A stretch of DNA of 64,000 nt from Singulisphaera sp. GP187 (GCA_945861245.1 CAMAUE010000001.1:62001-126000); one strand, 5' to 3'. Shown: positions 5,648 to 51,878, counted from the stretch's first letter. Numbers and translations: made by a program. The notes: generated from the letters alone by a model not told the origin.

Positions 5648-5711
5648 GTATCCCGCTTGCGGCTTAGCGCTCGCGCGACATGTTCCGAGCGCTAAGCCGC
5701 AAGCGGAATAC
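5648..5711. repeat. Palindromic element, family A (gcttgcggcttagcgctcg)
   Basis: 26-bp arms 5648-5673 and 5686-5711 pair with one mismatch around a 12-base spacer. Near-identical arms recur at 9053-9116, 22179-22237 and 32744-32803. It lies in the divergent gap between the sigma-like gene and the isomerase-like gene and extends the apparent open frame of the latter upstream. Confidence 0.9.
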
Positions 5712-9052: not shown

Positions 9053-9116
9053 GTATTCCGCTTGCGGCTTAGCGCTCACGTCGGATTATCCGAGCGCTAA
9101 GCCGCAAGCGGAATAC
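9053..9116. repeat. Palindromic element, family A
   Basis: Two exact 25-bp arms (9053-9077, 9092-9116) with a 14-base spacer, in the 97-base gap between the acylase and Nudix genes. No T-run follows, so an intrinsic terminator role is not proven. Confidence 0.92.
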
Positions 9117-22178: not shown

Positions 22179-22237
22179 TTCCCGCTTGCGGCTTAGCGCT
22201 CGGATAATCCCGCGCGAGCGCTAAGCCGCAAGCGGAA
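22179..22237. repeat. Palindromic element, family A
   Basis: Arms 22179-22202 and 22215-22237, almost exact, 12-base spacer, in the 91-base gap between lysA and the next plus-strand gene. Confidence 0.9.
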
Positions 22238-28441: not shown

Positions 28442-29281
28442 CTACAGCACTCGCCGTTTGATCTCAGCCACTTTTTGCACCGTAAGCCAACCGCGTAGTT
28501 GATACCCGCTCTTGCGTAGGTTTTCGGGCGTCGGTTCCGCGCTGGGGCTGCCGCCGGTTTCGCTTGCGGTGAGGTGGATGCGTTTCATGAGCGTGCCGAA
28601 CCAGTCGTTCGGACGGCGGGTGAGAATCTCGCGTTCCAGGTCGAGGACGGGCGTGCCGCGCTCCTTGGCGATGGCTCGCAGAACATCGTTGAATTGTTTT
28701 GTTTTCTCAAACTGTGCCTTGAACGGCGGGATCGTATTAAGAATCGGAATCGATCCACGGTCAAGGATCATGTCAAGCGCTTTGGCCATATCCTTGCGAT
28801 AGGCGTCGATTGGGGTTCCATCCTCGATGTCGTAGATGCCGCACTCGATGGCTACGATGCGTGGTTTCGTCTCATCGAGTATTTTTTCAAGTGTCGGCAG
28901 GCCGCGTTTCCCGCCGGCGAAGAGCATCGCCGCCTTCAATCCGCTTTCCGACGTGTGAGCACGATAGGAAACGATCTCGGTTCGACACAGCCACCAGCCG
29001 TCGGTTTTGTCCTTCTTGTCGGTGTGCATCCACTTGAGGATCGCCTCGTCGTCGCGAGTCTTACCCTTGCCGCTACGAGCCCAGGTTCCGTACGGATTGG
29101 CGATGGTCATCGAGCCGCCGACGTGGATGACGACGCCATCCGTGCCGCGAAACTTGGCCGCGACCTTCTTCATCGGTGCGACGTAATCCCAGTCCTCGGC
29201 GATCGGCTTGACCGAAGGCGATTGCCCAAGGCTGATGCTCGCCAAGAACAAGAACGCGAGAACGGTAAGACGTAATTGCAT
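28442..29281 (-). CDS. Secreted SGNH/GDSL-like hydrolase
   Basis: 279 residues, signal peptide MQLRLTVLAFLFLASISLGQ. IHVGGSMTIANPYG is a GDS-like block I with the nucleophile Ser; AIECGIYDIEDGTPIDAYRKD fits the block III region; RIHLTASETGG near the end carries the candidate catalytic His. The usual Asp three residues before that His is Lys here, so activity is uncertain. It lies 25 bases downstream of the HtrA/hydrolase fusion and 5 bases upstream of the Cys-rich gene, which suggests one transcript. Possible substrate: carbohydrate or acyl esters in the periplasm. Confidence 0.75.
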   Translation of the reverse strand: MQLRLTVLAFLFLASISLGQSPSVKPIAEDWDYVAPMKKVAAKFRGTDGVVIHVGGSMTIANPYGTWARSGKGKTRDDEAILKWMHTDKKDKTDGWWLCRTEIVSYRAHTSESGLKAAMLFAGGKRGLPTLEKILDETKPRIVAIECGIYDIEDGTPIDAYRKDMAKALDMILDRGSIPILNTIPPFKAQFEKTKQFNDVLRAIAKERGTPVLDLEREILTRRPNDWFGTLMKRIHLTASETGGSPSAEPTPENLRKSGYQLRGWLTVQKVAEIKRRVL

Positions 29282-29306: not shown

Positions 29307-31406
29307 TTACTGCTGATCCAGCGAATCGATCCAGCGTATGACTTCGCGGAGTTGCTTGTCGTTCAGGTAATCGCGACCACGCTCGGGATGCTGACGGTAA
29401 AAGGCCGGGTAACGGCGTTCCGCCAGGCGGGTGCGACCTTCGGCGATGCTCTTGGCGAGCGGGTCGAGTTCGCCCGTCGTCAGGTAGAACGACAGCCGTT
29501 GCCCGGCGATGTTGTCCTTGAACTGAATCGGAGCAGCACCGACGGCGCAAACGCCACGGAAGAGGTCGCGATGACTGAACCCAAGGTGAATCGCCATATT
29601 CCCGCCCACGCCCCAGCCATGTGCGATCACACGCTGCCGATCGACCGTGTAACGGGTCATCGCATCGCGCGTCGCAGCCGTCACGAAATCCGAGAAGCTG
29701 GGAATCCACTCGTCCTTGTCCATCACCGGCATTACGAGAATTAGGTGATTGGCCTTGCAATAGTCTTCCCACACTTCTTGAAACGCTTCAAAATCTTCTT
29801 TGTTCTTCTTGCCAGCAGGGTGAAGCCAAACGAGCACCGCATGGGCAACGTTCGGATCGTAGTCTTCGTGCACGAAAAGCCAATATTTGTGCTCGCCATC
29901 GGGCGTGTTGCGAAGCATCAATCCCGTTTCGGGCATCGGCGGCTTTTCTTCGATAATCTTCGGCGGCTTAACGTTCGGATTGCCCGATTCCAACGGTGCC
30001 AACGCTTTCTTCACCGACGCGATCTCCGGCAGTTTATCAAGCACATCCACCGGCGCCCCGGGCAAGGCACCCGGCAGATTATCGAGCACAAGCGTGATGA
30101 CTTCTGCCTTGTCGGCTCCCTTGCGTTTCACCTCAAGCTTCGCTTCCGTCCCCGGCGTAACCGTGGCCAGCCACTCGAACAACTGGGCCCGCCCTCGCTT
30201 CGTGTCCCCGATGAAGGCGGTGAGTTGCTTCTCGTCCACGCCAAATTTCACGATGCGGTCGCCTACTTTGAGACCGGCCTTATCGGCAGGGCTTTTGTCG
30301 AAGACATGGCGAATTTCGACGCCGAGCTTCGGGTCGTCTCGTAACGGCAGGATGCCAAGGAACGGCTGCGCGATGACCTGGATTTTTCCGACCAGTTCGA
30401 GCGATTTGATTTCCTTGACTTCGCCGCCGCGTTTGTACTTGAGCGAAATCTTGTCGCCTTCGTATTTCACGCCAAGGGCGTGAAGCACCTGGGCCATGCG
30501 ATCGACCGGCTTGCCATCGATTTCGGTGATAATGTCGCCCAGCTTCAGGCCGGATTTGGAAGCGGCCGAGTTCGGCTGCACGAGACCAATCTCGGGCAGA
30601 ACGCCGTACATATCCTGACTCTTCATGGCCACGCCGAGCAGGCCTTTTTGCAGGTCCTTGCCATCCTTCAAGCGAGGCAACACCGTGAGAATGTCTTCCA
30701 TTGGAATGGCGAAACCAATGCCTGAATCGTACCATTCGAACCCGGCCGTCTCATCGTCCCCTTTGGGAGAGGCGGGAATGAGCACACCCTGCACCCGGCC
30801 CTGCATGTCAACAATTGGGCCGCCGTAGTTGATCGGCGAGACCTTGGCGTCGGTCTGAATCGCCTTGCCCCAAACCCGATTCGTCGCGCTGATGATGCCA
30901 ACGCAAATTGTCGGAGTCTTGTCAAGTTTCACGTCGAGCGCCCGGCCCAGAGCGATAGACCATTGCCCTTCCTTGATGTCCTTCTTCGGAACGAAATCCG
31001 GAACCACCAAGCCTTTCGCCTCTACTTTGAGCAACGTCAGCATGCGCGATTTGTCGGTCGCCACGCGAGTGGCAACCAACGGCTCGTTCGCCTTGCCGGG
31101 AAATCGCACGAGGATGGTGGTCGGATTATTAAGAAAGTTAAACGCGCTGGAAATGATGTAGCCATCGGCGGCCACGATGACGCCAGTGGTTGGCCCTAAT
31201 GCCGTACGAAACACCTGCCCCTTAGGCCCGGCGACGACGAGGTCGGTGCCGCCGCGCGTTTCGATCTGCACCACGCTCTCGCCGGCTTTCTTGGCTGCGT
31301 CCTTCGTCAACTTCTCGAGTTGATCGTTCAGGTCCTCCTGAGCAGACACCGAACGAACGCTCAGAACCAATACCACCGCCGCCAATATGCTTATGCGTCG
31401 AAACAT
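29307..31406 (-). CDS. HtrA-like pseudoprotease with two PDZ domains fused to an alpha/beta-hydrolase lacking its nucleophile
   Basis: 699 residues; signal peptide MFRRISILAAVVLVLSVRSVSAQ. Residues about 30-245 follow the HtrA (S1C) fold, but all three catalytic positions are changed: His to Phe89 (GYIISSAFNF), Asp to Met122 (RMLTLLKV), Ser to Tyr194 (PINYGGP). Two PDZ domains follow (about 255-340, NSAASKSGLKLGDIITEIDG; and 349-440, KSPADKAGLKVGDRIVKFG). The C-terminal 200 residues are an alpha/beta-hydrolase (HAVLVWLHPAG, ANHLILVMPV) whose G-x-S-x-G elbow reads GWGVG, Gly599 in place of Ser. It probably works as a binding or scaffold protein. ATG 31406 has an AAGGTG ribosome site. Confidence 0.88.
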   Translation of the reverse strand: MFRRISILAAVVLVLSVRSVSAQEDLNDQLEKLTKDAAKKAGESVVQIETRGGTDLVVAGPKGQVFRTALGPTTGVIVAADGYIISSAFNFLNNPTTILVRFPGKANEPLVATRVATDKSRMLTLLKVEAKGLVVPDFVPKKDIKEGQWSIALGRALDVKLDKTPTICVGIISATNRVWGKAIQTDAKVSPINYGGPIVDMQGRVQGVLIPASPKGDDETAGFEWYDSGIGFAIPMEDILTVLPRLKDGKDLQKGLLGVAMKSQDMYGVLPEIGLVQPNSAASKSGLKLGDIITEIDGKPVDRMAQVLHALGVKYEGDKISLKYKRGGEVKEIKSLELVGKIQVIAQPFLGILPLRDDPKLGVEIRHVFDKSPADKAGLKVGDRIVKFGVDEKQLTAFIGDTKRGRAQLFEWLATVTPGTEAKLEVKRKGADKAEVITLVLDNLPGALPGAPVDVLDKLPEIASVKKALAPLESGNPNVKPPKIIEEKPPMPETGLMLRNTPDGEHKYWLFVHEDYDPNVAHAVLVWLHPAGKKNKEDFEAFQEVWEDYCKANHLILVMPVMDKDEWIPSFSDFVTAATRDAMTRYTVDRQRVIAHGWGVGGNMAIHLGFSHRDLFRGVCAVGAAPIQFKDNIAGQRLSFYLTTGELDPLAKSIAEGRTRLAERRYPAFYRQHPERGRDYLNDKQLREVIRWIDSLDQQ

Positions 31407-31420
31407 GGAAAACACCTTGT

Positions 31421-31455
31421 CATTAGTCATTGGTCATTAGTCATTGGTCATTAGT
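31421..31455. repeat. Short tandem repeat, 14-base unit
   Basis: Two and a half copies of cattagtcattggt, directly upstream of the HtrA/hydrolase fusion gene start. Confidence 0.85.
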
Positions 31456-31481
31456 GCCGTTGTTACTTGGCAAGTTTCGTA

Positions 31482-31557
31482 TTTTCGTGTTCGTAGTGCG
31501 GGCTTTAGCCAGTTCTCGGCAGGAAACGGGCTAAAGCCCGCACTACGAACGCGAAAA
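31482..31557. repeat. Palindromic element, family E (gggctttagcc)
   Basis: 29-bp arms 31482-31510 and 31529-31557, one mismatch, between two minus-strand HtrA-like genes. A single copy in this window. Confidence 0.9.
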
Positions 31558-31604
31558 ATGCCAACTGCAAACGGCACTAGCCACTAGCCACTGCCTCGAC
31601 ACCA

Positions 31605-32696
31605 CTAATTCACGGTTTTCGGCGGGTTGGCGAGTTTCAGCTTCACGTTTTCGAGCTTGTTGCCTCGCTGAAGTTGCACGCTGATCTCGCGGCCTGGCTC
31701 GTATTGCTTTAGGGTCTCTCGCCAAATCTTGATCGTGGGCACCGAGAAGCCTTCGACATACAGGATCAGATCGTCCGGCCTCAAGCCAGCGATGGCGGCC
31801 GGCGAACCGCTGACGATTTCCTCAACGTACGGCGGCGTCGAACTCACCGCATTGACGACGAGGATGATGCCGTGGTAACCGCCCTTGTCTTCACGCCTGA
31901 TCTTGACGGTTTCCTGGTAATTGCCCAGTAGCGCCTTGTGGACGAAGGTGATGACGCTTTCCTTCTCCATGATCGATTTCCCGGTCTTCTTGTCTTCACG
32001 CTGCACCTCGATTTTGAACTGAATCGGCACGGCATAGTTGATCCAGGTATCGATGCGGTTGTCCTTCAATTCACGCCCAATGATGCCGAGCAACTCACCC
32101 TTGCGTGTTGTGATCGCCCCGCCGGCGGCGCCGGGGTTGCACACGATATTGTCGAGGAAATAAACATCGCCCGAATATGGCGCATCGAAGATGCCGCGTC
32201 GGCCTTTGAGGTCGGCAACGGTGAGGATCGCGCCGCGCTGCACCGACATCGGCTCGTCGCCCTGGGCGATCTTGAATTGGTTGGAAAACGCCAGCACCCA
32301 GTCGCCGGTCTCCGCCATCGCCTTTTCCGCAGCCTTGTCAAAAACAAAGTGTGGCAGGAAATCGACATCCTCGTCGATCTTGAGCAAGGCGACATCCAAC
32401 TCCGGTTCACGGATCAACACCTTGGCTTGATAACGCCGGCCGTCGTAAAGATGCACGACAATGCCGGGCGTATTCAAAATGTGGTTGTTGACGGTGAGAA
32501 TATGCCCCTTCGCCGACACGAGCAATCCGGTCCCGTACGACGGCAGGCCCTTGAAGCCGCCGATGCCGAACAGCTTGACCATCTTCCGGTTGACTTGCTC
32601 CGATGCTGCCGTGACGGAATTCTGGGCACGCAATTCCCCCACGGCCAAGAGCATCATCGCTATTCCGAGCAAGCGATAAGTAATTTTATAGTTCAT
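31605..32696 (-). CDS. HtrA-like protein with one PDZ domain, catalytic Ser replaced by Ala
   Basis: 363 residues, signal peptide MNYKITYRLLGIAMMLLAVGELRAQ. His72 (TVNNHIL) and Asp101 (ELDVALLKID) of the HtrA triad are present, but the GNSGGP motif reads PGAAGGA, giving Ala191 at the Ser position. A PDZ domain lies near 270-350 (SGSPAAIAGLRPDDLILYVEG). Predicted to bind but not cut substrates, possibly assisting the intact HtrA encoded just upstream (32814-34580). The ATG at 32696 is preceded by a weak site (aacgacaccg). Confidence 0.85.
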   Translation of the reverse strand: MNYKITYRLLGIAMMLLAVGELRAQNSVTAASEQVNRKMVKLFGIGGFKGLPSYGTGLLVSAKGHILTVNNHILNTPGIVVHLYDGRRYQAKVLIREPELDVALLKIDEDVDFLPHFVFDKAAEKAMAETGDWVLAFSNQFKIAQGDEPMSVQRGAILTVADLKGRRGIFDAPYSGDVYFLDNIVCNPGAAGGAITTRKGELLGIIGRELKDNRIDTWINYAVPIQFKIEVQREDKKTGKSIMEKESVITFVHKALLGNYQETVKIRREDKGGYHGIILVVNAVSSTPPYVEEIVSGSPAAIAGLRPDDLILYVEGFSVPTIKIWRETLKQYEPGREISVQLQRGNKLENVKLKLANPPKTVN

Positions 32697-32743
32697 CGGT
32701 GTCGTTCCCTGTGGTGTGTCGCGATCGGTTCTTGGGTGCGTTC

Positions 32744-32803
32744 TTCCCGCTTGCGGCTTAGCGCTCGCGTGGGCCCTTGCGAGCGCTAAGCCGCAAGCGG
32801 GAA
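32744..32803. repeat. Palindromic element, family A
   Basis: Exact 25-bp arms 32744-32768 and 32779-32803 around a 10-base spacer; ends 10 bases before the stop of the intact HtrA gene on the minus strand. Confidence 0.92.
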
Positions 32804-32813
32804 TTGCAAACTT

Positions 32814-34580
32814 CTAATTTCCTGCCACCTTGTAACTGCCGACCGTGAATGTTCCGTAGTGGACATCCTTGTAATAGACCTGCATGCGGTGAGGCAACTG
32901 TCGGCCGTCGACGACGCGATAATCCGAGAAGTACACTTCGCAGGGATCCTCGTTCGCTTCTTGCAATCGAAGCTCCATGCCGATCAGCTTCTGGTCCGAT
33001 TTCGCGAAAAAGAACTTGGTCAGGTAGATGCCTGTGCGAGCATTCAGCACCTCGGCATCGACCCGTTGGGCAAGCCAATTCTTGACGGTGGAATTATCCG
33101 TCGGCGGCATATAGATCGGCTCCATGCCACCGTGATGGCATTCCGACGTGAAGCCTTTGTCGCCTTCCAGCAGCAGGTGACGCCAAACATAAAGGGCGGG
33201 CAGGAATCCGCCGCTGCCGTTCGGCTTTCGCAATTCGTTAACATTCGCGTTGTTGGGATCGACCATGTCGGGGAACGCGCCAATCTTGAGCGTGACCAAC
33301 GGCTTCTCGCTCTTGCCGATCTTTTCGTCTTTGATCTCCGCTGTGAACGGGCTATCGGTGCGAGCCTTCAGTAGCGTCACGCGGCCTTCAAACGACCAGG
33401 TTCCGCCCTTACCCGCGAAGTCGCCTTGTTTCTTGAACGCCGTCATCAAGCGGGCTTTCTCCTGACGGTTGAAGTAATAATTCGCAAACCCCGCCTTGGC
33501 CTCGTAATACTTTGCGGCCGGCCCTTGCGGACCTTTGACCGGTGGGCCTTTCGGTTGCTTCTTCGGATCGGGTTCGTCGAGTTCCTTGCGCTGCACGCCC
33601 ATCAGGCGGACGAGGATTTCCTTGCGGTCGTCGCCACGGCGATATTCCAACGGCACACGCCAATCTCGCGGATACAAACCGACGACGTTCTTGTAGTGAT
33701 TGTCGCTCGTCACCTGCCGCCCAGCGAACGAGAATATCTCGTCCTCTTGATCCAGCCCGCGGCGATAGGCATCGGACTCGACGAGAATCGACGTGATGCG
33801 CGTCTTGCCCAGGCCAAAATTTTCAACATCGGTGCGGATCAACGCGCCCAGGCTGGCGTGATCGGCATCCAGTCCCGCGTGCAGATGACCCATGAAGTTT
33901 TTGATCTGGTTGATCGAGATCGCATAGCCGACGCCCGAATTGATGCGTGCACGCTTATCGAACGAACCACGACCGTTGATGCCGATGACCTCACCCTTGA
34001 GGTTGAACAACGGCCCACCGGAGTTGCCTGGGTTGATCGACGTATCGATCTGGATGCAATCGGTGTACTCAAGAAATAGGCCCGCAGGCGGCTGATACCG
34101 ATTAACCCCGGAGACCAAACCGAAGGTGACGGTCGGCGTAAAATCGGTCGCCAGGAGAAACGGATTGCCCATCGCGATCGACCAATCGCCTTCACGCACC
34201 TTGCCCGAATCGCCCATGACGGCAAACGGGAATTTGTCGCCGTCCTTCTTGGGCAGCAATTTGATCAACGCGACATCGCCGACTTTGTCCCAGCCGACGA
34301 GTACGCCTTCATAGAGCACGCCGTCGGCCAAGCCGCACTGCATCGTCGGGCCGGTCGGTTGGACGACGTGGAAATTCGTGAGGGCGTAGCCGTCGTCGGA
34401 GATCAAAACCCCCGTGCCGCCGCCCTGTCCGCCGCGTGCGAAAATCGCGACGACCGACGGCTTGACCTTCTCGATTACCGCCACGCGATCGCTCTCTGAC
34501 TTAAACGCCGCCGGCGATTGCGCAAACCCTAGCGAAGCGAATAGTACCAGCGATGCCAGCGACGAGATGAGTATTTTCAC
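32814..34580 (-). CDS. HtrA/DegP-like serine protease with intact triad, PDZ domain and LolA-like tail
   Basis: 588 residues from a GTG at 34580, which begins a normal signal peptide (VKILISSLASLVLFASLGFA). Triad in that numbering: His71 (LTNFHVV), Asp102 (GDVALIKL), Ser187 (NPGNSGGPLFN). A PDZ domain is near 250-330. The last 230 residues are beta-rich and end VDGRQLPHRMQVYYKDVHYG, recalling the lipoprotein-sorting (LolA/LolB-like) pattern; this part is inference. An ATG at 34625 is possible and would add MVLFTLSILLALGCS. Degrades or refolds misfolded periplasmic proteins by analogy. Followed on the same strand by two HtrA-like proteins without full triads. Confidence 0.87.
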   Translation of the reverse strand: MKILISSLASLVLFASLGFAQSPAAFKSESDRVAVIEKVKPSVVAIFARGGQGGGTGVLISDDGYALTNFHVVQPTGPTMQCGLADGVLYEGVLVGWDKVGDVALIKLLPKKDGDKFPFAVMGDSGKVREGDWSIAMGNPFLLATDFTPTVTFGLVSGVNRYQPPAGLFLEYTDCIQIDTSINPGNSGGPLFNLKGEVIGINGRGSFDKRARINSGVGYAISINQIKNFMGHLHAGLDADHASLGALIRTDVENFGLGKTRITSILVESDAYRRGLDQEDEIFSFAGRQVTSDNHYKNVVGLYPRDWRVPLEYRRGDDRKEILVRLMGVQRKELDEPDPKKQPKGPPVKGPQGPAAKYYEAKAGFANYYFNRQEKARLMTAFKKQGDFAGKGGTWSFEGRVTLLKARTDSPFTAEIKDEKIGKSEKPLVTLKIGAFPDMVDPNNANVNELRKPNGSGGFLPALYVWRHLLLEGDKGFTSECHHGGMEPIYMPPTDNSTVKNWLAQRVDAEVLNARTGIYLTKFFFAKSDQKLIGMELRLQEANEDPCEVYFSDYRVVDGRQLPHRMQVYYKDVHYGTFTVGSYKVAGN

Positions 34581-34667: not shown

Positions 34668-35852
34668 CTACTGACTAACATGAGCATTCGCTAGCGTCGC
34701 ATGGCCGGAGAAGTTCGTGAAGTTCGATCCGGACACCACGACACGAAGCGATGTAACGTCCTTGACGTTGATGGAGATCGGCTGCGGATTCATTACCGAG
34801 ACGATGTAGGTCTGCCGTTTCTCGCGGTCGCAATAGATGGTGACGGTGACTTTGCCCTGCCCTTCCTCGGCAATGCGGGCGTCGGCGCCGACCACGGCCT
34901 TGAACTCCTTGTACTTCCCGCCAAGGTTGTATTCCAGATCGGCGCCGGCGTAGATCGATAGCCCTTTGTCGTATTTCTTGTTTTGCAGCATGATCGGATC
35001 GCCGTCGAGATTAACATCCCGGCGGACCGGATTGAAGCCACCCAATAAGATCGCGACCGGCGATTTCGGTTCGAGATCGGAGAGGTATGTCAGTCGGCCA
35101 AAATTGAAATCGAACCGTGCGATTGTCTTGCCATCCAGCGCGATCTTATGCCCGAACGGCGTCGTCAAATTCACTGTCGTCCCATCGTAGCTGAGTTTCG
35201 AGACCACCAGCATGTTGCCGTCCACGTCGTAGACCCGACATAGATTCGCCTCGGAGGCAGTGTCGGTACGAGCGAATTGCAGGCCTTGCAGTTTTTCGAT
35301 TTGCGGCTCGATATCGCCGGCGCCGTCCACTTTGAACTTGATGGTCTGCTTGGCGTCATCGACGGTGCCGAGTGTTCCGGGGATCGGGTTTAAGTCGCCC
35401 TGGCGAAGCGTAAAAATGCGATCCTTGCGGCTCTTGTCGCGAATCAGTTTCTCCCACTGCTTGCGGATATTATCATCCTGGGCGTCGCGAAGGATTGTCA
35501 ACAAAGCGGAGATCGGGACCTTCACGCTTGCGCCGGTTGTCAGATCGATCTTCGCGTCCTGCCCGGCGAATGCGATCTTGGTGCAGCGCAGCAGCGATTC
35601 ATCGGCAAGTTGGACTTCGATGTATTTGTCAACTGTCGGCTTCGCGTTCGCTGTGCGGAAATGAATGTCGAGCACCTGGGCCAACGGCGTCGAGACCGGA
35701 GCCGTCGGCGTCTTGACGACGATTTCGCTGTCGGTGATTTTTTCAATCTTGCCGGAGATCGTCTTGCCGGTGAGCGTCTTCACATCGTCAGCAAGGACGG
35801 GGAACGCCAGGACAAGAACAGCGAGAAGCGAAACGGATTTAGGCCGAAACAT
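34668..35852 (-). CDS. Secreted NPCBM-domain protein
   Basis: 394 residues, signal peptide MFRPKSVSLLAVLVLAFPVLA. The N-terminus has the small beta module LTGKTISGKIEKITDSEIVV, common in planctomycete NPCBM proteins. The C-terminal 150 residues (ILLGGFNPVRRDVNLDGDP, KYDKGLSIYAGADLEYNLGGKYKEFKAVVGAD, KDVTSLRVVVSG) are an NPCBM/NEW2 carbohydrate-binding domain. Likely binds surface or periplasmic polysaccharide. ATG 35852 has a GAGG ribosome site; the frame extends four codons further to 35864. About 90 bases upstream of the HtrA gene on the same strand. Confidence 0.85.
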   Translation of the reverse strand: MFRPKSVSLLAVLVLAFPVLADDVKTLTGKTISGKIEKITDSEIVVKTPTAPVSTPLAQVLDIHFRTANAKPTVDKYIEVQLADESLLRCTKIAFAGQDAKIDLTTGASVKVPISALLTILRDAQDDNIRKQWEKLIRDKSRKDRIFTLRQGDLNPIPGTLGTVDDAKQTIKFKVDGAGDIEPQIEKLQGLQFARTDTASEANLCRVYDVDGNMLVVSKLSYDGTTVNLTTPFGHKIALDGKTIARFDFNFGRLTYLSDLEPKSPVAILLGGFNPVRRDVNLDGDPIMLQNKKYDKGLSIYAGADLEYNLGGKYKEFKAVVGADARIAEEGQGKVTVTIYCDREKRQTYIVSVMNPQPISINVKDVTSLRVVVSGSNFTNFSGHATLANAHVSQ

Positions 35853-35895
35853 GACAAGCCTCAAGCCAATAGGTGTGCATCATGAAGTTTATTCA

Positions 35896-36085: not shown

Positions 36086-37222
36086 TTACTTACGATTCAG
36101 GGCGGGGTTATTCAGGTTGCGGAAGTACGCTTCGATGGCCTCGCGGTGGCGAGGCGACAGACCGTTGGTTAGTTCTTGCAAAGCCCGTTCCCGTTCACGC
36201 GGGGGCAGGCGGCCGAATTCGGAAACCATTTTCTTGAACTTGGTAGGATCAACGGTGCCTTTAGAGCTTCCGGTTGGATCGAAGACGTCCTGACCGGGAG
36301 CTTGCGGAGGCGAGGTGTCGCCCTTATTGCCCGGCTTGCTGCCAGGACCAGGCTTGCCGCCATCGGGGCATTCATCCTCACCGTTGCCATCTTTCGGCGG
36401 GCCATCTTTCGGATCGCCCTCTTTCGGGTCGCCGTCTTTCTTCTTCTTGTCTTTGTTTTCGAGCTTCTTAATCAGCTCGTCGAGACGGTTGAGAACTTCC
36501 TTCTGCTGGCGTTGCGTTTCCGGGCCGCCGCGGGCGATTTCGAGTCGGCGTTCGATGTTGTCCATTTTGCGAGCGATATCGCCGAGGTCTTTGTCGCGCC
36601 AGGTGTGCATGTCGAGCAGGATGAGCGTCGCGACAGTCTTGTAGCGTTCCGGTGCGATCGCTGAACCTTCCTCGAGCAATCGCGTGATCGACTTGGTCGC
36701 CTCGGGCTTGCGTTGCAGGGCATGCTCGCAAACCGCACGATGGAAGAGATACGCAGCCGGGTCGAGCGTTTCGTCGGCCCCGAACTGTTTCAGCGTGTCC
36801 AGCGCTTCTTCATACACGCGGCGATTGGCCAAGGCGCGGGCATAAACCAGGCCGAGGTTCGCGCGATAAAAGGCTGCCGACTTCGTGTTCTTGAAAACAT
36901 CAGGCAACACGATCGGAGCAGCAGCCTGCGGATCGCGTGCGTCGCTGATGAGCTTGGCAGCGACGGCGTCGCCCAGGGCCAGCGAATCAGCCACCCGGTC
37001 AAGCACACTGCGGGTTTCGTCTTTCCAGATCGCGTCGGCTTTCTGAGCCGTGGCGGCGTCGGACTTACCGACTTCTTTCAGCCAAGCCAGGACGCGCGGC
37101 TTGGCGATCTCGGCGGTCACCGATTCAAACGTCCCGAAGGACGGTTTTCGGTCGTTACCGATGGCCGTGCTGCTGGTCGCAAACACGATAAACAGCACAG
37201 CGGTGATGAGGAAGCGTTTCAC
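36086..37222 (-). CDS. Secreted helical-repeat protein, last gene of the MoxR/Bat-like cluster
   Basis: 378 residues, signal peptide MKRFLITAVLFIVFATSSTA. Residues about 60-220 are TPR-like helices (YRANLGLVYARALANRRVYEEALDTL, AYLFHRAVCEHALQRK). A Lys/Asp/Gly/Pro-rich linker (about 240-310) leads to a conserved end, FGRLPPRERERALQELTNGL...AIEAYFRNL, seen in many planctomycete proteins of this kind. Its ATG overlaps the stop of the upstream gene by 4 bases (ATGA), indicating translational coupling. Function unknown; the context suggests envelope work with the VWA proteins. Confidence 0.8.
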   Translation of the reverse strand: MKRFLITAVLFIVFATSSTAIGNDRKPSFGTFESVTAEIAKPRVLAWLKEVGKSDAATAQKADAIWKDETRSVLDRVADSLALGDAVAAKLISDARDPQAAAPIVLPDVFKNTKSAAFYRANLGLVYARALANRRVYEEALDTLKQFGADETLDPAAYLFHRAVCEHALQRKPEATKSITRLLEEGSAIAPERYKTVATLILLDMHTWRDKDLGDIARKMDNIERRLEIARGGPETQRQQKEVLNRLDELIKKLENKDKKKKDGDPKEGDPKDGPPKDGNGEDECPDGGKPGPGSKPGNKGDTSPPQAPGQDVFDPTGSSKGTVDPTKFKKMVSEFGRLPPRERERALQELTNGLSPRHREAIEAYFRNLNNPALNRK

Positions 37223-39408
37223 TTGTTGTCTCCCTTTGCAATTCGGCTGACGATTTCCTGGATACGCAATTGACGCTCGGCCAAGTTCCGCAGTTCCGTA
37301 ACCGTCTGCGGATCGCGGGTCTGTTCCTCGCCAGGGAACCGTTTCGCATAACCGACGGTACGGTCATTGACGCGTTTCTGGAGCGAACGAACCATCTTCA
37401 ATTCCTGGATCAACTCAAGCAGCTTCTTGTCGCCTTGTCCTCCCTTGCCCGCTTTGCCAGCTTTTCCCGGCTTACTATCGGATTTATTGTCTTCTTGGGC
37501 TTTCTTGAGGGCGTCGATCATTTCCTTGAGTGTGTCGATAATGTCGCGTTCGATACCTTGCGTAACGCCGGCGACATCAGTCAATTCGAGCCGCTTCTGC
37601 ACATGAATCATGTCCTGGCGAATTTGCTGGAATACTTCAGGGAAGGCGACGGCGGACCCTTCGGATTCCAGTATCGTGATGCATTTGTTGCATTCCTGCA
37701 CGATGTCCTTCTGCTTGTCGGCCAAGCCGAGCGATGCGAGCTTGTTGTCGCGGTTGGGTTTCTTGTCGGCGTTCTTGAGAATCGACCTGTCGGTGTCTTC
37801 CGTGCCGAGGAGAACCTGTTTCTGCATCTCAAGCATCTTTACGCAACGATTTTCGAGGGCGGCGAGGACGCGTTCGATTTCTTCTTCACGCAACTGCTGA
37901 AGGAGCTTTTCGAGGCGTTTCTTCGCGGCCTCAAGCTCCTTGATCGCGTTGGCCTGCTTGTCGCTCGCCTGCTTGTTGTCGCCCTTATTGATATTGTCGG
38001 TGGCGGCCTTCTGCTCGTAGCCAGCTTCTTCGATCTTCTTCTTGGTTTGCTGCACTTCCTGATCTTGCTTGTCGCCGCTCGGCGGGTTGTTGGCCTGGGG
38101 TGGTTCGCCACCCTTTTGCTGGGGCTGCTGAGCCTGCTGGCCCGGCATTGGCGGCGCACCACCGTCTTTAGCCTCGCCCTGACCGGACTTGGAATCGCCA
38201 GGCTTGGCATCGCCTTGCTTGGCTTCGCCGCCCTTGTCGCTCGGCTTGGCGTCGCCGGGCTTGGCCTGAGCAGCTTCTTTGCCGCCGGCTTTAGCTTCTT
38301 TGGCGCCGCCTTGCTTGGCATCTGGCTGACCGGGCTTGGCCTGGCTGTCGGGCTTACCCTGAGCTTTTTCGCCGCCCGCTTTCTTGTCCTCGCCTGGCTT
38401 CGCGGCTCCTTGCGGGCCGTCTTTTTTATCGCCGTCGGCTTTGGCGCTGCCTTCTTGGCCCTTCATCGGAGATTTCTCGCCTGCATTGGGCTTGGCGGAA
38501 CCTTCCTGGCCTTTGCCAGCATTCTTATCGTCTTTGGCACCGGGCTTGGCGTCGCCCTCTTTACCGGATTTGTCGCCAGGCTTCGCGTCGGACTTTTTGC
38601 CTTCGCCAGCCTTCGGATCCTGGCCGGGCTTTGCTTCGCCTTTGGCGCCCTTGGCTTCTGGACCGGCTTGCTTGGCCTCGCCTCGTTTGGTTTCTTTTTG
38701 CTCCCGGCCATCGTTCTTCGATTCGCCCTTGCTGCCTTCTTCTTTGCCGGGGTCTTTGTTCTCGCCCTTCAGGTTAGCCGCCTCGCCGGCTTTGCTGTCC
38801 TTTTTCAGGAATTGATCGATACTCTTGCCGATCTCGGCGGTCTTCTTGTTGACTCCTTCTTGAATCTGCTTCAACTCATCTTTGTCGGTCTTGTTGCGAT
38901 CGGTCTGTCCCTGGGCCGCACGTTGGGCGTCGATGGCCTTCTGAATCTGCAGAACGATCTTCGCAAGGTCTTCGCGATCTTTGGAGAAATCGAGCGAACG
39001 ATCCTGCAGCATGTCGTAGATCTTTTTCAGCCGTTCAGCGAGCAAGGCGCTTTGTTCCTTGGCCTTGATCGCGTCGGTCGTTGTCGTGAACTTGGCCAAG
39101 CGCAGGATCTCGATCATCTTTGAAAATTCCTGGTTGATCGCCAGGTTCTTGCATTCGTCGATGACCTTGTCGAGCACTTCCGCGCGGCGTTTTTCTTCGG
39201 GCGTGCCACGCGAGAGACGCTGTTTCAAGCGTAACAGCGCGTCCTGAAAGTCCGCGAACCCGCGGGCCAGTTGTTGTTCGGTCGTGATGATTTCGCCGGT
39301 GTCTGGGCCGGTGTTGCCCTTATTCGGCTGAGTGGTGGATTGCTGGGCCAACGCAAATAGCGTGATCGCCATGAAGCCAATGCTGGCCAACAAAAGACGC
39401 GCTTTCAT
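37219..39408 (-). CDS. Secreted coiled-coil protein with long Lys/Gly/Pro-rich low-complexity region
   Basis: 729 residues; signal peptide MKARLLLASIGFMAITLFALAQ; a strong ggaggac ribosome site precedes ATG 39408. Residues about 45-210 and 450-700 are helical and charged. Between them about 230 residues repeat KPGDAK, GEAKPG, KGGEAK-type units. The C-terminal block (LLELIQELKMVRSLQKRVNDRT, ELRNLAERQLRIQEIVSRI) recurs in planctomycete genes at this position in such clusters. Probably spans or crosslinks within the periplasm. It precedes and is coupled to the helical-repeat gene. The opposite strand shows a 617-codon open frame that is a by-product of the composition. Confidence 0.82.
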   Translation of the reverse strand: MKARLLLASIGFMAITLFALAQQSTTQPNKGNTGPDTGEIITTEQQLARGFADFQDALLRLKQRLSRGTPEEKRRAEVLDKVIDECKNLAINQEFSKMIEILRLAKFTTTTDAIKAKEQSALLAERLKKIYDMLQDRSLDFSKDREDLAKIVLQIQKAIDAQRAAQGQTDRNKTDKDELKQIQEGVNKKTAEIGKSIDQFLKKDSKAGEAANLKGENKDPGKEEGSKGESKNDGREQKETKRGEAKQAGPEAKGAKGEAKPGQDPKAGEGKKSDAKPGDKSGKEGDAKPGAKDDKNAGKGQEGSAKPNAGEKSPMKGQEGSAKADGDKKDGPQGAAKPGEDKKAGGEKAQGKPDSQAKPGQPDAKQGGAKEAKAGGKEAAQAKPGDAKPSDKGGEAKQGDAKPGDSKSGQGEAKDGGAPPMPGQQAQQPQQKGGEPPQANNPPSGDKQDQEVQQTKKKIEEAGYEQKAATDNINKGDNKQASDKQANAIKELEAAKKRLEKLLQQLREEEIERVLAALENRCVKMLEMQKQVLLGTEDTDRSILKNADKKPNRDNKLASLGLADKQKDIVQECNKCITILESEGSAVAFPEVFQQIRQDMIHVQKRLELTDVAGVTQGIERDIIDTLKEMIDALKKAQEDNKSDSKPGKAGKAGKGGQGDKKLLELIQELKMVRSLQKRVNDRTVGYAKRFPGEEQTRDPQTVTELRNLAERQLRIQEIVSRIAKGDNK
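38090..38780 (-). repeat. Low-complexity coding repeat (GEAKPG-like)
   Basis: Irregular short repeats built from gcc/ggc/aag/gac codons coding for Lys, Gly, Pro, Ala, Asp and Glu. No spacer-repeat structure. Confidence 0.8.
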
Positions 39409-39460
39409 AGAACAAGTCCTCCCCATGCTTGGGTGACAAACCTTAGCGGTTTCGCGTTGC

Positions 39461-39487
39461 CTCACCCATGTTTCTTACATGAGTGAG
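39461..39487. promoter_or_regulatory. Small inverted repeat in the leader of the coiled-coil gene
   Basis: ctcacccatg (39461-39470) pairs with catgagtgag (39478-39487), one mismatch, 7-base loop, 53 bases before the ATG on the minus strand. It could be an operator or leader hairpin; no function shown. Confidence 0.3.
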
Positions 39488-39642
39488 ACGATTTTGGACA
39501 CGGTGTGCTCGTCAACGGCGATATTATGACGAACTGAATTCAATCTCCCAACAAAATTCACAAAAAAACGCATAAGGCTCATTGGCAAATAGTCGTAGTA
39601 GCCAGCCCAACGCATCTTTGTCTAATTTACCATAAATGGCCA

Positions 39643-43467: not shown

Positions 43468-43520
43468 TTTCAACGCCCTCCCGGGGGCTTTCGATTAAAC
43501 TTTGTCCGGAACATTTCTGC

Positions 43521-43596
43521 CCAAGCCCCAGGATGAGCGCAGCGCTTCCTGGGGGTTCGGACCCCCGCGAATCGCTACGCTCATCACGGGGCTTGG
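43521..43596. repeat. Palindromic element, family F
   Basis: ccaagccccaggatgagcgc (43521-43540) pairs with the mirror stretch ending at 43596 (three mismatches over 24 bases); inside is a second palindrome (gggggttcggaccccc). In the 142-base gap between two cluster genes. Confidence 0.8.
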
Positions 43597-43609
43597 ACAA
43601 AACCTAACA

Positions 43610-46828: not shown

Positions 46829-46868
46829 GAGGTTAGGTCCGTTGCGATCATCGTCAAATAACGCGCCA

Positions 46869-46901
46869 ATGATGGCGGGTTCACAGGGTCTCCGCCATCA
46901 T
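46869..46901. repeat. Short perfect inverted repeat between two cluster genes
   Basis: atgatggcgg (46869-46878) and ccgccatcat (46892-46901) in the 92-base gap between the BatA-like and VWA genes. Could be a processing or attenuation hairpin. Confidence 0.55.
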
Positions 46902-46920
46902 CGGCGGGCTATTTTGCATG

Positions 46921-49701
46921 CTAGGAGCGTGCCCGCGGCATGGCGCCGTCGTCATCGTTTTTCTTCATGTGGAAGCTCAGATGGACTGCCAACGCTTGCT
47001 CTGCTACCAAGACGAGCAGCAGGATCAGAAACAACCACGGCGACTCGGAAAACTCACTTTTGCGAACCAAAAGGTCGTCGGACATGCGAATCGTGTCCTT
47101 GGCCGGCTCGATAAGTGTTTGCTTCATCTCGTCGTTACTTAGACGCTTGAGATCGCCTTCACGTGCGGTATCGACGTTAAACACATGGGCAAACGTCGCG
47201 ATTGGCGCCTTGTCTGGTGCGTTCTGATCGACGAGATGCGAGAGATACAGTCCAGGCTGGACGTTGCGTTCCAGAGGAAAAATCAACGTGTTTTCTTGGG
47301 TCGTCGGGAAGACATCGCCGAGCTTGATGTCCTCCGCGGGTTTGCCGCCGGCTTTCTTGAAGTGGCGAACAATTTTGGGCTGGATACCTTTCATCGCGTC
47401 GGCGTCGAGTTCGATTTTCACGTCTTCGGCGCCGACGACGAGATTGGCATCGGTGCCCGCACTGGAGAGGTAGTTTTGCAGTTCCCAGATAAACGGCGCG
47501 TAAAGAATGCTCGCCGCCGAACCGCCGCCCCAATCGTTCCAGTCTTTGCCTGCGGTTGACATCATGGCAACGACCTTGCCCTTGCCGAACGATTGCGACA
47601 GAACGAAGGGATCGCCATAGTTGACCTGGAAACGCAGCCGTTCTAGCGAGCCTTTGAGTGCGAGCACTTTGTCGTCACTGTTGGCCCAGAATTCGGTCAT
47701 GTCGGGGAAGGTATCGCGCAATTTCGCCTGGGGCGAGCCACGATCCGTGAGGAGGGCCTGAATCCGGTTCGCAAGTTGGAACGCCCGCGCATCCGAATCG
47801 TTCTTGACAAGTTGCACGATCTCATCCAAATGCGTCCTAAGTCGAGCGTGGTATTTCTTCAGATCGGCATTCGCCAGAATCGCGCGACCGTGGGTATCGA
47901 CCAATTCCTTGACCTCATTGTCAGAGTTCCTCGCTAGGGCGTCATTTGGCAAGGTCGCCAACTCGAAGACTTTGCCTGGAACCTTTTTCCACAAGGCGCG
48001 ATTCACTTGGAAGAAACGTTTGATCGGCAAGTTATTCAATGGTGCCCGAAACTGTGGATCGGGGAACATCTTGCCAAAGATCGGCACATCGCGGTCAGCG
48101 CCGAACTCGTCGTCGCGGATCAGCAACTGTGGCGAATCGCTCGGCTTGGATTCCAACTCCGATTCATTGGGCGGCGGGAAAAAGTTGTCCCTGATCGGCG
48201 CGGGGAATAGTCCCTTGCCTTCGCGATAAAACGATTTGTTGTACCACGCGGCATTGACGAGCGGGCCCATAAAGATCGCCACGCCGCCGCCGTCGTTGGT
48301 GTAATTTTCGAGATTCGCTAGTTGCTTCGGCGTCAGGTCGCGGACGTTGGCGAGGATGATCGTTGGATACTGGTTCAGGTCGGGCCGTTCGAGCACCTTG
48401 GCCGGGTTGCCCGGATGCATTTCATCACCGAATACGACGTTGTAGCTGCCTGGCACGGAGATGAGACTGGTGCGCAGGAAGAAGCTGTCTTTGCCTTCAT
48501 CACGGCCTTTCGGATCGCCATCGATGATGAGCACGGGCACGCGTTCGCGCACCTCGACCGATGCCCAGCGGATGTTGTCGGCGGCGAGGGCGTCGTTTTC
48601 CAGCGCACCGAGCTGCGGGCTTTGCATACGCACACTCAGATGGGCGTGATTGTTCTCGCCGGCCTTGACCTCGGTGAAGCGATGTTCGAAGGTGACGACG
48701 GTGATTTTTCCCGGAACGAGCTTAATTGGGTTATGCGGGTTGAAGTTAATGTCGAACATGTCCTTCCCGGTCGTCTCGTCGCGGGCCATCAGGCTCATCT
48801 CGATCTGTTTGCTACCGAAGTTCATGATGGTGACGTTGAACTGAACCGGCATGTTCTTGCCGACAATGCGCGTATTGGGCCGAAAGTCGATGATACCGAC
48901 GTTATCACGTGAGGCCGGGATGCCGCCCAGCTTGATTTCTCGCCTCGGCGAAACAGTATCGGCTGGGATGATCTTCAGTTTGTCCTTGTTCTTGTTCGCC
49001 AATTCAACGAGCTCCTTGACCAGCACATCGCCCTCGGCTCCCGTCCAATCCCGATGCCGAAAGTCGCCAATGATGTGCAGTGTCGCCGGGGTGTCGGCGT
49101 ATTTGGTGAGGAATTCCTTGGCCAGCTTCAGGGCGCGCAGCGTGCTGACGTGTGTCAGACTCGGCTCGATGTCGCCGATGTCGCGTTCCACTGCCTTTCG
49201 GCGTTCGTCGTCGCTAAGCTTTTCGTACACTTTCGGCTGATAGTCTTTCTCAAGCAGTTTGGAGAGCTGAATCAGCACGAGCCGATCGTTCGGATGGCCT
49301 TGAGCGATGCCTTTGACGATCTTCTTGATGTCGTTGCGAGCATTATCGAGACTGTTCCGCGGAGCGCCTTCTTGCTTCCAGGTGTCTTGCGTGCTGAGTG
49401 TGTCATCAAGGATGACGATATGAAGATTCGGCTTGCCGAGGTTGTTGTCCGAGCAACCGACGAAACGAGCGACCAAGAGACCGACGAGGGCGATCAACAG
49501 GCAGCGCAGCGCCAGGAGCATCAATTGCTCGATGATGAGCCGACGGCGGGTACGCTTTTGGGCTTTGAGCAAAAACTCCATCGCCGCCCACTGTATGCGC
49601 TTGAAGCGCATCCGATTGATCAAATGAATGATGATCGGCACGCTGATGAGCGCGGCAGCAATGAATAGAAAGCCCGGATTCGCAAATATTAGCGACAGCA
49701 T
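46921..49701 (-). CDS. BatA/VWA-like membrane protein
   Basis: 926 residues. N-terminal BatA region: FANPGFLFIAAALISVPIIIHLINRMRFKRIQWAAMEF and a second helix LLALRCLLIALVGLLVARFV. A VWA-like domain follows (LHIVILDDTLSTQDTW, MIDAS D-x-T-x-S instead of D-x-S-x-S). Later comes a glutamine-amidotransferase-like part (YPTIILANVRDLTPKQLANLENYTNDGGGVAIFMG) and a C-terminal membrane helix (SPWLFLILLLVLVAEQALAVHL). It lies 63 bases downstream of the DUF58 gene. Expected to act with MoxR and DUF58 in an envelope complex. Confidence 0.87.
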   Translation of the reverse strand: MLSLIFANPGFLFIAAALISVPIIIHLINRMRFKRIQWAAMEFLLKAQKRTRRRLIIEQLMLLALRCLLIALVGLLVARFVGCSDNNLGKPNLHIVILDDTLSTQDTWKQEGAPRNSLDNARNDIKKIVKGIAQGHPNDRLVLIQLSKLLEKDYQPKVYEKLSDDERRKAVERDIGDIEPSLTHVSTLRALKLAKEFLTKYADTPATLHIIGDFRHRDWTGAEGDVLVKELVELANKNKDKLKIIPADTVSPRREIKLGGIPASRDNVGIIDFRPNTRIVGKNMPVQFNVTIMNFGSKQIEMSLMARDETTGKDMFDINFNPHNPIKLVPGKITVVTFEHRFTEVKAGENNHAHLSVRMQSPQLGALENDALAADNIRWASVEVRERVPVLIIDGDPKGRDEGKDSFFLRTSLISVPGSYNVVFGDEMHPGNPAKVLERPDLNQYPTIILANVRDLTPKQLANLENYTNDGGGVAIFMGPLVNAAWYNKSFYREGKGLFPAPIRDNFFPPPNESELESKPSDSPQLLIRDDEFGADRDVPIFGKMFPDPQFRAPLNNLPIKRFFQVNRALWKKVPGKVFELATLPNDALARNSDNEVKELVDTHGRAILANADLKKYHARLRTHLDEIVQLVKNDSDARAFQLANRIQALLTDRGSPQAKLRDTFPDMTEFWANSDDKVLALKGSLERLRFQVNYGDPFVLSQSFGKGKVVAMMSTAGKDWNDWGGGSAASILYAPFIWELQNYLSSAGTDANLVVGAEDVKIELDADAMKGIQPKIVRHFKKAGGKPAEDIKLGDVFPTTQENTLIFPLERNVQPGLYLSHLVDQNAPDKAPIATFAHVFNVDTAREGDLKRLSNDEMKQTLIEPAKDTIRMSDDLLVRKSEFSESPWLFLILLLVLVAEQALAVHLSFHMKKNDDDGAMPRARS

Positions 49702-49764
49702 GACCGTTGATTTCCCATGTTATCCGTGATGCGTTTGAGCGACGCCAACTGGTTGACGGCTGGC

Positions 49765-50706
49765 TCACCCAGGCGATTGCGACTTGGCCGGCGCTTTCGC
49801 CATCGCCTCGCGGTGATGGAGAAATTTCGACAAAGCCGCGTCGAGGTAATCTTTCGTGCTGATGAGTTGATAGTCGATGCCTTTGCGTGAACAACCGCGG
49901 CGGACTTCCGTGAGATATTCCTCGACGACTTCGACATACCCCTGCCGAAGGGCACGCGGATCGCACACAACGGCATCGGGGCCTTCGAGGTCTTCAAATC
50001 GCGTTGTGCCGGCAAACGGGAATGTCAGTTCGTCTTCATCCATGATGTGGAACATCAGAATATCGTGCCGGCCATGACGCAACATTTCGATGCCGCGAAA
50101 GAACTCCTCGCGATTGACGAAGACATCGGAGATCATCACGACCATGCTGCGGTTGGGGATATTTTCCGCGACTCGCCGGATAATGCGTTCGATATTCGTT
50201 TTCTCGCGAGGCCGACTGACATCGAGCGCTTTCAGGATCGCGTCGAGATGATTATGTGCGCTGCGTGAGGGCACGACCTGGCGCACGTCGTCGTCAAAAG
50301 TGATCAGGCCGACGGCGTCCTGTTGATGCAGCAGCATGTAGGCCAGGCTCGCCGCCACCGTGCTGGCATAACTGTACTTGTTCAACGGCCCGGTTCCGTA
50401 CTGCATCGATGCGGACACATCGACGACTAATTGGCAGCGCAGGTTCGTCTCGGCTTCGTACTGCTTGATGTAGAACTTGTCGGTTTTCGACCAGACCTTC
50501 CAATCGAGATGGCGAACATCATCGCCTGGCGTGTAGTCGCGGTGCTGCACGAACTCGACGGAATGCCCGAAGAACGGACTGCGGTGCATGCCGGAGATGA
50601 ACCCCGTGACCGCCTGCTTCGCGCGGAGATCGAGCTGCGAGATGCGCGCGATCGTCTCGGGGTGAAGGAACCGCTTCGGATCATCTTGCGTTTTCGCTTT
50701 TGCCAC
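49765..50706 (-). CDS. DUF58 protein (VWA fold)
   Basis: 313 residues from a GTG at 50706, which gives MAKAKTQDDPKRFLHPETIA, the usual N-terminus. The open frame reaches 50769 only by reading through a palindrome (MSSFPRAAWERV), so I reject that start. DUF58 signature RDYTPGDDVRHLDWKVWSKTDKFYIKQYEAETNL, and a MIDAS (VVDVSASMQYG, near 96-100) followed by VGLITFDDDV and MVVMISDVF. Cytoplasmic partner of the MoxR ATPase encoded 74 bases upstream; typical of MoxR-DUF58-VWA operons. Confidence 0.9.
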   Translation of the reverse strand: MAKAKTQDDPKRFLHPETIARISQLDLRAKQAVTGFISGMHRSPFFGHSVEFVQHRDYTPGDDVRHLDWKVWSKTDKFYIKQYEAETNLRCQLVVDVSASMQYGTGPLNKYSYASTVAASLAYMLLHQQDAVGLITFDDDVRQVVPSRSAHNHLDAILKALDVSRPREKTNIERIIRRVAENIPNRSMVVMISDVFVNREEFFRGIEMLRHGRHDILMFHIMDEDELTFPFAGTTRFEDLEGPDAVVCDPRALRQGYVEVVEEYLTEVRRGCSRKGIDYQLISTKDYLDAALSKFLHHREAMAKAPAKSQSPG

Positions 50707-50735
50707 GGTTGCGTTCTCGGTGAGAGCAATTATTA

Positions 50736-50764
50736 CTCGTTCCCACGCAGCGCGTGGAAACGAG
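50736..50764. repeat. Palindrome ctcgttcccacgc / gcgtggaaacgag
   Basis: 13-bp arms with one mismatch and a 3-base loop, between the MoxR and DUF58 genes. Translated in one frame it gives SFPRAAWERV-type peptides often seen as false N-termini in planctomycete annotations. Confidence 0.85.
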
Positions 50765-50780
50765 GACATTACGTCAGCAT

Positions 50781-51878
50781 TTATGCCGCGAAGATCTTCT
50801 TGAACCGTTCGTCCTTCGTGAGTTCGCCTTCCTTCGATGGCGTTTCCTGAAGCAGTCGTTCGATGACTTTGTCCGTCGTAATGCCTTCCGACGCAGCCGT
50901 GAAGTTCGTCAGAATGCGGTGACGCAACACGGGCAGCGCGAGTGCCTGGATGTCCTCGGTTTGCACATGGGTGCGACCAAACAGCAGCGCCCGAGCCTTA
51001 CCACCAAGCACCAGGTTCTGCACGGCACGCGGACCGGCGCCCCACGACAGCCATTCCTTGATGAATTTCGGCGCACCCGGCTGATTCAGACGTGTCTGGC
51101 GCACCAAGGCCAGCGTGTAGTGCAGGACATGATCGGTGACCGGCACGCGGCGGACGAGCCGTTGCAACTCGAGAATCTGGTCTCCCGTCAGTACCGGCGA
51201 GATCTCCGCCGACGTGGATGTCGTCGTGCGGCGAGCGATCTCGAATTCGTCTTTGAACGTCGGGTAGTTGACGAAAATCTTGAACATGAAACGATCTTGT
51301 TGGGCTTCGGGCAACGGGTACGTGCCTTCTTGCTCGATCGGGTTCTGCGTGGCGAGCACGAAGAACGGATCGGAAAGCTTGTGCCTAATGCGACCGACGG
51401 TGACTTGGCGTTCCTGCATGGCTTCGAGCAGAGCGGCCTGCGTCTTCGGCGGAGTACGGTTGATTTCGTCGGCGAGGATCATGTTTGCGAACAGCGGGCC
51501 GTTGATGAACTTGAATTCACGCATACCGGTCGAGCGGTTCTCTTCGATAACTTCCGTGCCGGTTATGTCCGACGGCATCAAGTCAGGCGTGAACTGAATG
51601 CGGCTGAAGTCGAGCGACAAGCAGCGCGACAGCGAACTGATCATCAACGTCTTCGCCAAGCCCGGCACGCCTTCCAGGATGCAATGGCCTCGACTGAAGA
51701 GGGCGATCAGAAGCTCTTCGATCACCTGCTCTTGGCCGACGATCACGCGGCCGAGCTGATCGCAAAGGCTCTTGTAGGCCGATTTCAACTTTTCGGCGGC
51801 ATGAAGATCATCGCGTGTCAATTCGCTCGTTGACGATAGTGCGGGTACCACGGTTCCTAATGCTTTGATGTCGGTCAT
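50781..51878 (-). CDS. MoxR-family AAA+ ATPase
   Basis: 365 residues. Walker A GVPGLAKT (70-77), Walker [10 protein letters not shown] (about 132-140), sensor-1 [24 protein letters not shown], and C-terminal lid with [13 protein letters not shown]. MoxR ATPases act as chaperones that activate or insert metals into partner enzymes together with VWA proteins. It heads the DUF58, BatA and VWA genes on the minus strand. ATG 51878 has only a weak upstream site (gagtaacga). Cytoplasmic. Confidence 0.94.

Follow-up and report, generated by a model that had tools for sequence, protein, structure and literature searches.

Dead relatives of a protease, retained beside an active enzyme, have been described in two systems that bear closely on the locus considered here, a tandem trio of HtrA-like genes (A, B and C) in a 64,000-nucleotide stretch of the Singulisphaera sp. 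GP187 genome (GCA_945861245.1 CAMAUE010000001.1:62001-126000; hereafter, the window). The first is MamE/MamO, in which one gene cluster encodes two Trypsin_2/HtrA proteins, the first active and the second degenerate in its triad; the pseudo-HtrA protein MamO activates MamE non-catalytically and is needed for MamE proteolysis, while a physical interaction between the two was not detected (PMC4794232). The second is CspB/CspA/CspC of Clostridioides difficile, in which an active protease shares one locus and one pathway with two pseudoproteases from its own family, and in which CspC and CspA bind each other and not the active CspB (PMC12880746). These are the closest precedents for the trio, MamE/MamO by homology and the Csp proteins by organisation.

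At the same time, neither precedent is a direct match. MamE and MamO are two proteins where the trio has three, a TauE-like transporter domain and a metal site are part of MamO, and the system is found in magnetosome islands only, where active/dead pairs arose separately in three taxa, whereas each dead protein here has one old origin. The NCBIfam MamE model gives 95, 41 and 59 bits for A, B and C against a cut-off of 800, the MamO model gives 35 and 37 bits for A and B and no match for C against the same cut-off, and no magnetosome genes were recognised among the trio neighbours scanned. The Csp proteins have a subtilisin fold rather than that of HtrA, act in spore germination, and have relatives in Clostridiaceae and Lachnospiraceae that are predicted to be active. 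Among canonical HtrA proteins, DegP, DegQ, DegS and MucD are folded like the protease-PDZ portions of A and C, but these proteins are active, and A and C bear additional C-terminal domains; to our knowledge, no canonical HtrA has two conserved dead paralogues adjacent to it. Plant Deg5 and Deg8, different HtrA paralogues of one compartment, offer a precedent for mixed HtrA assemblies, but they are treated as active proteases and are encoded by nuclear genes rather than a bacterial array.

A literature search, with most subscription papers outside its reach, found no paper describing a planctomycete HtrA trio, and a survey of microbial PDZ proteins noted many of them in planctomycetes, with nothing further on the subject (PMC6411480). 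The trio is a variation on a known kind of pairing, active protease with pseudoprotease, made remarkable by its age, its spread and its two dead partners.

Domains and catalytic residues of A, B and C

An earlier note, made from the sequence, had described three HtrA-like genes in tandem: one with an intact His71, Asp102 and Ser187, one with Ala191 in place of serine, and a third said to be fully degenerate with a fusion. We find the open reading frames and these residues as described (Table 1). All three proteins score above the curated Pfam cut-off for Trypsin_2 (99.7 bits for A, 62.7 for B and 57.6 for C, against 27.6), and in B and C the PDZ domain is above its cut-off as well, giving the order of a trypsin-like domain followed by PDZ that defines the HtrA/Deg family. 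The NCBIfam Do/DegP-type model TIGR02037 scores 196, 105 and 153 bits for A, B and C, short of its cut-off of 416, and the three thus lie outside the curated DegP/DegQ/DegS subfamilies. They are only distantly alike one another. The 6.04 Mb Singulisphaera genome holds 20 Trypsin_2 matches, and by rough arithmetic over about 5,000 genes, three adjacent Trypsin_2 genes would be expected by chance well under 0.001 times. Hydrophobic N-terminal stretches, read by eye as signal peptides, suggest that A, B and C are exported to the periplasm.

Table 1. Positions of the trio, its catalytic-site codons and its upstream neighbours in the window
Feature	Position	Strand	Details
Gene A, active HtrA-like serine protease	32814..34580	-	588 aa, GTG start
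Gene A layout			signal peptide; trypsin-like domain ~55-201; degenerate PDZ ~264-325; C-terminal beta-rich domain ~354-588
A His71 codon	34368..34370	-	catalytic
A Asp102 codon	34275..34277	-	catalytic
A Ser187 codon	34020..34022	-	catalytic, within GNSGGP
A beta-rich C-terminal domain	32814-33521	-	residues ~354-588; AlphaFold2 model, confident; kept class-wide
Gene B, predicted pseudoprotease HtrA	31605..32696	-	363 aa; signal peptide, trypsin-like domain, one PDZ
B Ala191 codon	32124..32126	-	catalytic Ser position, within NPGAAGGA
Gene C, predicted pseudoprotease HtrA	29307..31430	-	707 aa
Gene C layout			signal peptide; dead trypsin-like domain 82-216; two PDZ; alpha/beta-hydrolase-like domain ~500-707
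C Ala96 codon	31143..31145	-	catalytic His position
C Arg129 codon	31044..31046	-	catalytic Asp position
C Tyr202 codon	30825..30827	-	catalytic Ser position, within NYGGP
C Gly607 codon	29610..29612	-	alpha/beta-hydrolase nucleophile position (GWGVG, not GxSxG)
NPCBM-domain gene	34668..35864	-	directly upstream of A; conserved beside A in 105/120 loci
h378	36086..37222	-	upstream, no assigned function; co-oriented in 97/120 loci
h748	37219..39465	-	upstream, no assigned function; co-oriented in 93/120 loci
BatA-type, DUF58 and MoxR AAA+ genes	46921..51878	-	upstream

The HtrA/Deg (MEROPS S1C) triad is present in A alone. It is intact in all 72 full-length homologues of A and in 110 of 111 aligned rows from the class, the sole exception being a misaligned partial row. 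The PDZ domain of A falls below the cut-off in its own sequence (17.8 against 27 bits) and is detected in 49 of the 72 homologues at E<=0.01. The AlphaFold2 models of A and C (each with a predicted local distance difference test score, pLDDT, of 92) match DegP, DegQ, MucD and other HtrA structures (Foldseek E 1e-24 to 1e-28), the matches of A being dominated by its HtrA part and not by the C-terminal domain. For the latter, a profile search of PDB sequences gave no match, and weak similarity to DUF4292 appears in just 3 of the 72 homologues. In three genomes (L124, L127 and L154) gene A is broken into two overlapping frames, either by assembly frameshifts or by genuine breaks.

B in Singulisphaera sp. 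GP187 retains His72 and Asp101. Across its 113 class homologues, 112 have no serine at the nucleophile position (Ala 85, Gly 21, His 4, Gln 1, Asn 1, Ser 1), while the catalytic His is retained in 47 and the Asp in 94. The single copy with a nucleophile serine (L181, genome G071) has Gln in place of its His.

C has lost all three residues. No His stands at the His place and no Asp at the Asp place in any of 116 class rows, one of which has a His at the Asp place, and Tyr occupies the Ser position in 115 of them, surrounded by the invariant N201, G203 and G204. The model of C keeps the DegP/DegQ fold (Foldseek E ~1e-27). Its C-terminal stretch resembles polyhydroxybutyrate (PHB) depolymerases and feruloyl esterases, with a match to a PHB-depolymerase-family esterase at E 5e-6, but lacks the GxSxG motif and catalytic His of such alpha/beta hydrolases: the nucleophile is Ser in 3 of 84 rows and another residue in 81, and the nearest His, H681, a candidate catalytic position, is present in 2. 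The description of C as fully degenerate with fusion thus holds for the loss of His, Asp and Ser and for the fused hydrolase domain; the word degenerate is misleading, since C is conserved and its Tyr nearly invariant.

The PDZ domains tell a different story from the catalytic sites. With the carboxylate loop placed by analogy to DegP, no variation is seen in the loop glycines G263 and G266 of the first PDZ of C (84 of 84 rows) or in their equivalent in B, G276 (59 of 59). Because these glycines are invariant while catalysis has been lost, peptide binding by B and C appears to be preserved.

Conservation and descent of the trio

Among 95 Gemmataceae genomes, A is found in 87, B in 88 and C in 91. 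Gene order in this family was read from 80 stretches around matches to A, B or C, plus the window. The three genes lie on one strand in the fixed order A-B-C in 75 of these stretches, which with the window makes 76 loci, and the other five, two from Limnoglobus roseus and three on short contigs, hold one or two of the genes. An insertion of ~5 kb separates A from B in two metagenome-assembled genomes (L182 and L185). A class-wide search with C gave strong matches in most families, and 35 of 40 class stretches around C matches hold the ordered trio, in 13 families besides Gemmataceae; the remaining five comprise two at contig ends and three with C alone. In a large family, f3, all three genes are absent from each of the 18 genomes sampled, a joint loss of A, B and C. 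The earlier note had held that separate genes with no co-occurrence would count against its reading; we find the genes adjacent and ordered in nearly all Gemmataceae and in the 13 other families, and the pattern it had proposed, an active protease with two dead partners, is invariant across trio loci. Taken together, co-occurrence, fixed order, joint absence and invariant roles support functional coupling of the three.

The search was extended to a phylum-wide sample of 392 genomes. Most of those outside the class gave generic HtrA matches only, and 30, from 16 families, were selected for strong C-like matches. In nearly all of the 30 the C-like match is a protease domain with one PDZ and no hydrolase domain (the exception is G406); this domain is, for the most part, restricted to C proteins of the class. 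Tyr stands at the C Ser place in 29 of the selected genomes, and a B-like protein directly precedes the C-like one in 28. The Ser place of the B-like protein, where the motif is readable (22 genomes), is Pro, Gln, Tyr, Phe or Asp, and Ser in none. In 28 of the 30, the best A-like match is co-oriented and 1-4 kb upstream; in the other two it is on a different contig. Given such A-B-C-like sets in selected genomes of other planctomycete classes, the trio probably predates the class.

In a tree built from the protease-PDZ part, A, B and C each form a fully supported clade of their own, all of them apart from ten other HtrA paralogues of the same genome, and B and C copies from other classes group with B and with C, respectively. 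This clade structure points to loss of the serine on the B stem and on the C stem, in each case ancestral and since retained. Rough pairwise ratios of nonsynonymous to synonymous substitution rates (dN/dS) among members of the genus are 0.13-0.43 for A, 0.09-0.40 for B and 0.19-0.45 for C; with dS near 1 in many pairs these values are indicative only, and they suggest that purifying selection acts on B and C as it does on A. B and C thereby combine what marks a pseudoprotease, namely clade-wide catalytic loss, purifying selection and a kept fold, the fold being modelled for C and resting on the Pfam match for B. Judged by these sequence comparisons, B and C are HtrA-like pseudoproteases by descent.

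Possible roles of the dead partners

Since the same order is kept across much of the phylum, the dead B and C must do a non-proteolytic job. Their ancestral loss of catalysis, strict retention, intact PDZ sites, fixed adjacency and joint loss suggest that this job serves the process in which A acts, and on balance we lean towards B and C as dedicated non-catalytic partners of A, whether as regulators, adaptors or chaperones, acting in its regulation or in the delivery of clients to it. The trio would then form a dedicated HtrA module of great age in the planctomycete cell envelope, with A as its sole protease, and B and C would be true pseudoproteases, retained for their trypsin fold and PDZ domains and helping A without catalysis. 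Most likely, they would bind peptides or unfolded clients by means of their blocked pockets and of PDZ peptide-binding loops that are still intact, and would then hand these clients to A or, by analogy, switch A on as MamO does MamE. Physical mixed assemblies of the three proteins, which the earlier note had suggested, are plausible.

Several observations weigh against such a partnership. Our analysis yielded no direct evidence of interaction among A, B and C. Limnoglobus roseus (G052) has C at a different place on its chromosome, far from A-B, and in at least three other genomes of the class (L212, L213 and L219) C has no A or B nearby; the trio can therefore come apart. B evolves faster than A. 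A-B-C may well be expressed as an operon, but because the intergenic gaps in the window are 118 bp (A-B) and 175 bp (B-C) and consist partly of palindromic repeats, a single transcript is not certain.

Nonetheless, we favour regulation of A, or client delivery to it, over independent adaptor roles. The latter would make B and C envelope chaperones or scaffolds, PDZ adaptors for the MoxR-DUF58-BatA-NPCBM gene cluster upstream, which do not act on A and share with it a pathway and an operon only. DegP-type proteins can be chaperones without proteolysis, the dead Csp proteins of C. difficile pair mutually and not with the active protease, and the entire upstream run is conserved together with the trio. 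The closest homologous precedent, MamE/MamO, is nevertheless one of regulation in trans; the trio is contiguous in two genomes (G087 and G096) where the best BatA match is not nearby, and a few loci, such as L179, keep A-B-C without recognised upstream genes near A. We therefore consider independent adaptors a possible but doubtful explanation.

We are similarly hesitant about a fixed hetero-oligomer, for example an A:B:C trimer with A as the one cutting subunit, comparable to the rings of ClpP/ClpR. HtrA proteases assemble as trimers or larger oligomers, and the one-to-one-to-one presence and order of the genes is fixed. Evidence for an interface is nonetheless lacking, the three proteins resemble one another just distantly, C stands alone in some genomes, and contact between active and dead members is not shown in the published analogues (PMC4794232, PMC12880746). 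Since mixed oligomers are one version of the partnership with A that we favour, our estimates for the two overlap. Equally tentative is the suggestion that A, B and C make up an obligate HtrA machine, already present in the ancestor of several planctomycete classes, in which the protease has two dedicated subunits that lack catalysis and are inherited with it; this machine would be the HtrA counterpart of ClpP/ClpR and would be coupled to the MoxR/BatA/NPCBM envelope system.

Activity of B or C, or both, through some other chemistry, such as Tyr202 or a relocated nucleophile, would fit the almost invariant Tyr of C and the His and Asp retained in part of the B copies, but we reject it as very unlikely, given that the His and Asp partners are gone from C, that the nucleophile position of B is variable and its His lost in most copies, and that the hydrolase-like domain of C nearly always lacks a nucleophile serine. 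Finally, the loss of catalytic residues would by itself fit a pair of decaying duplicates, pseudogenes in progress, but this is refuted by reading frames of B and C intact across >100 genomes of many families, by the near-invariance of the replacement residues, by dN/dS resembling that of A, and by the ancestral origin of both genes.

Regardless of the specific mechanism, the active/dead HtrA pairs of magnetosomes represent repeated separate events, whereas here two pseudo-HtrA proteins are fixed class-wide beside an active one and are met again in other classes of planctomycetes. The biology of the cell envelope in this phylum is unusual and little understood, and the trio is a natural, broadly conserved system for asking whether pseudoproteases control HtrA enzymes.

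Surrounding genes, repeats and a second pseudo-HtrA family

Upstream of the trio, the minus strand over 36086-51878 carries MoxR, DUF58, BatA-type and large unknown genes, then h748 and h378, followed by the NPCBM gene and the trio itself. For relatives, positions upstream of the trio were assigned from coordinates alone; on that basis, 18 of the 20 genomes checked have a BatA homologue 10-14 kb upstream of A. The gene run from MoxR-DUF58-BatA to NPCBM to A is conserved in most genomes, and much of this long-conserved cluster, through to A-B-C, is without assigned function. Downstream of the trio, a large protein (25368-28154, minus strand) has a weak C-terminal subtilase (S8) match; this gene and a GDSL gene (28442-29281) are found near the trio solely in the near-identical genome G063.

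Scans for promoters and terminators turned up nothing above chance. The A-B gap holds an inverted repeat, CGCTAAGCCGCAAGCGGG, at 32746-32801, a REP-like element that recurs at 5652-5707, 9057-9112 and 22181-22236; none of these four copies in the window is expected by chance. An inverted pair, CGGGCTAAAGCCCGCACTACGAA, lies in the B-C gap at 31490-31549, next to a TTAGTCATTGG tandem.

The same genome also encodes a second pseudo-HtrA family (L015:1303-2298, L017:535-1956 and L018:871-1917, on contigs C5, C6 and C37). In the three copies read in this genome, a PDZ domain is inserted within the trypsin domain and Cys stands in for the nucleophile Ser (KDCGGPLV). One of them, L017, shares its strand with an active paralogue, L009, that lies ~1.5 kb away, and has homologues in 51 of 61 Gemmataceae.

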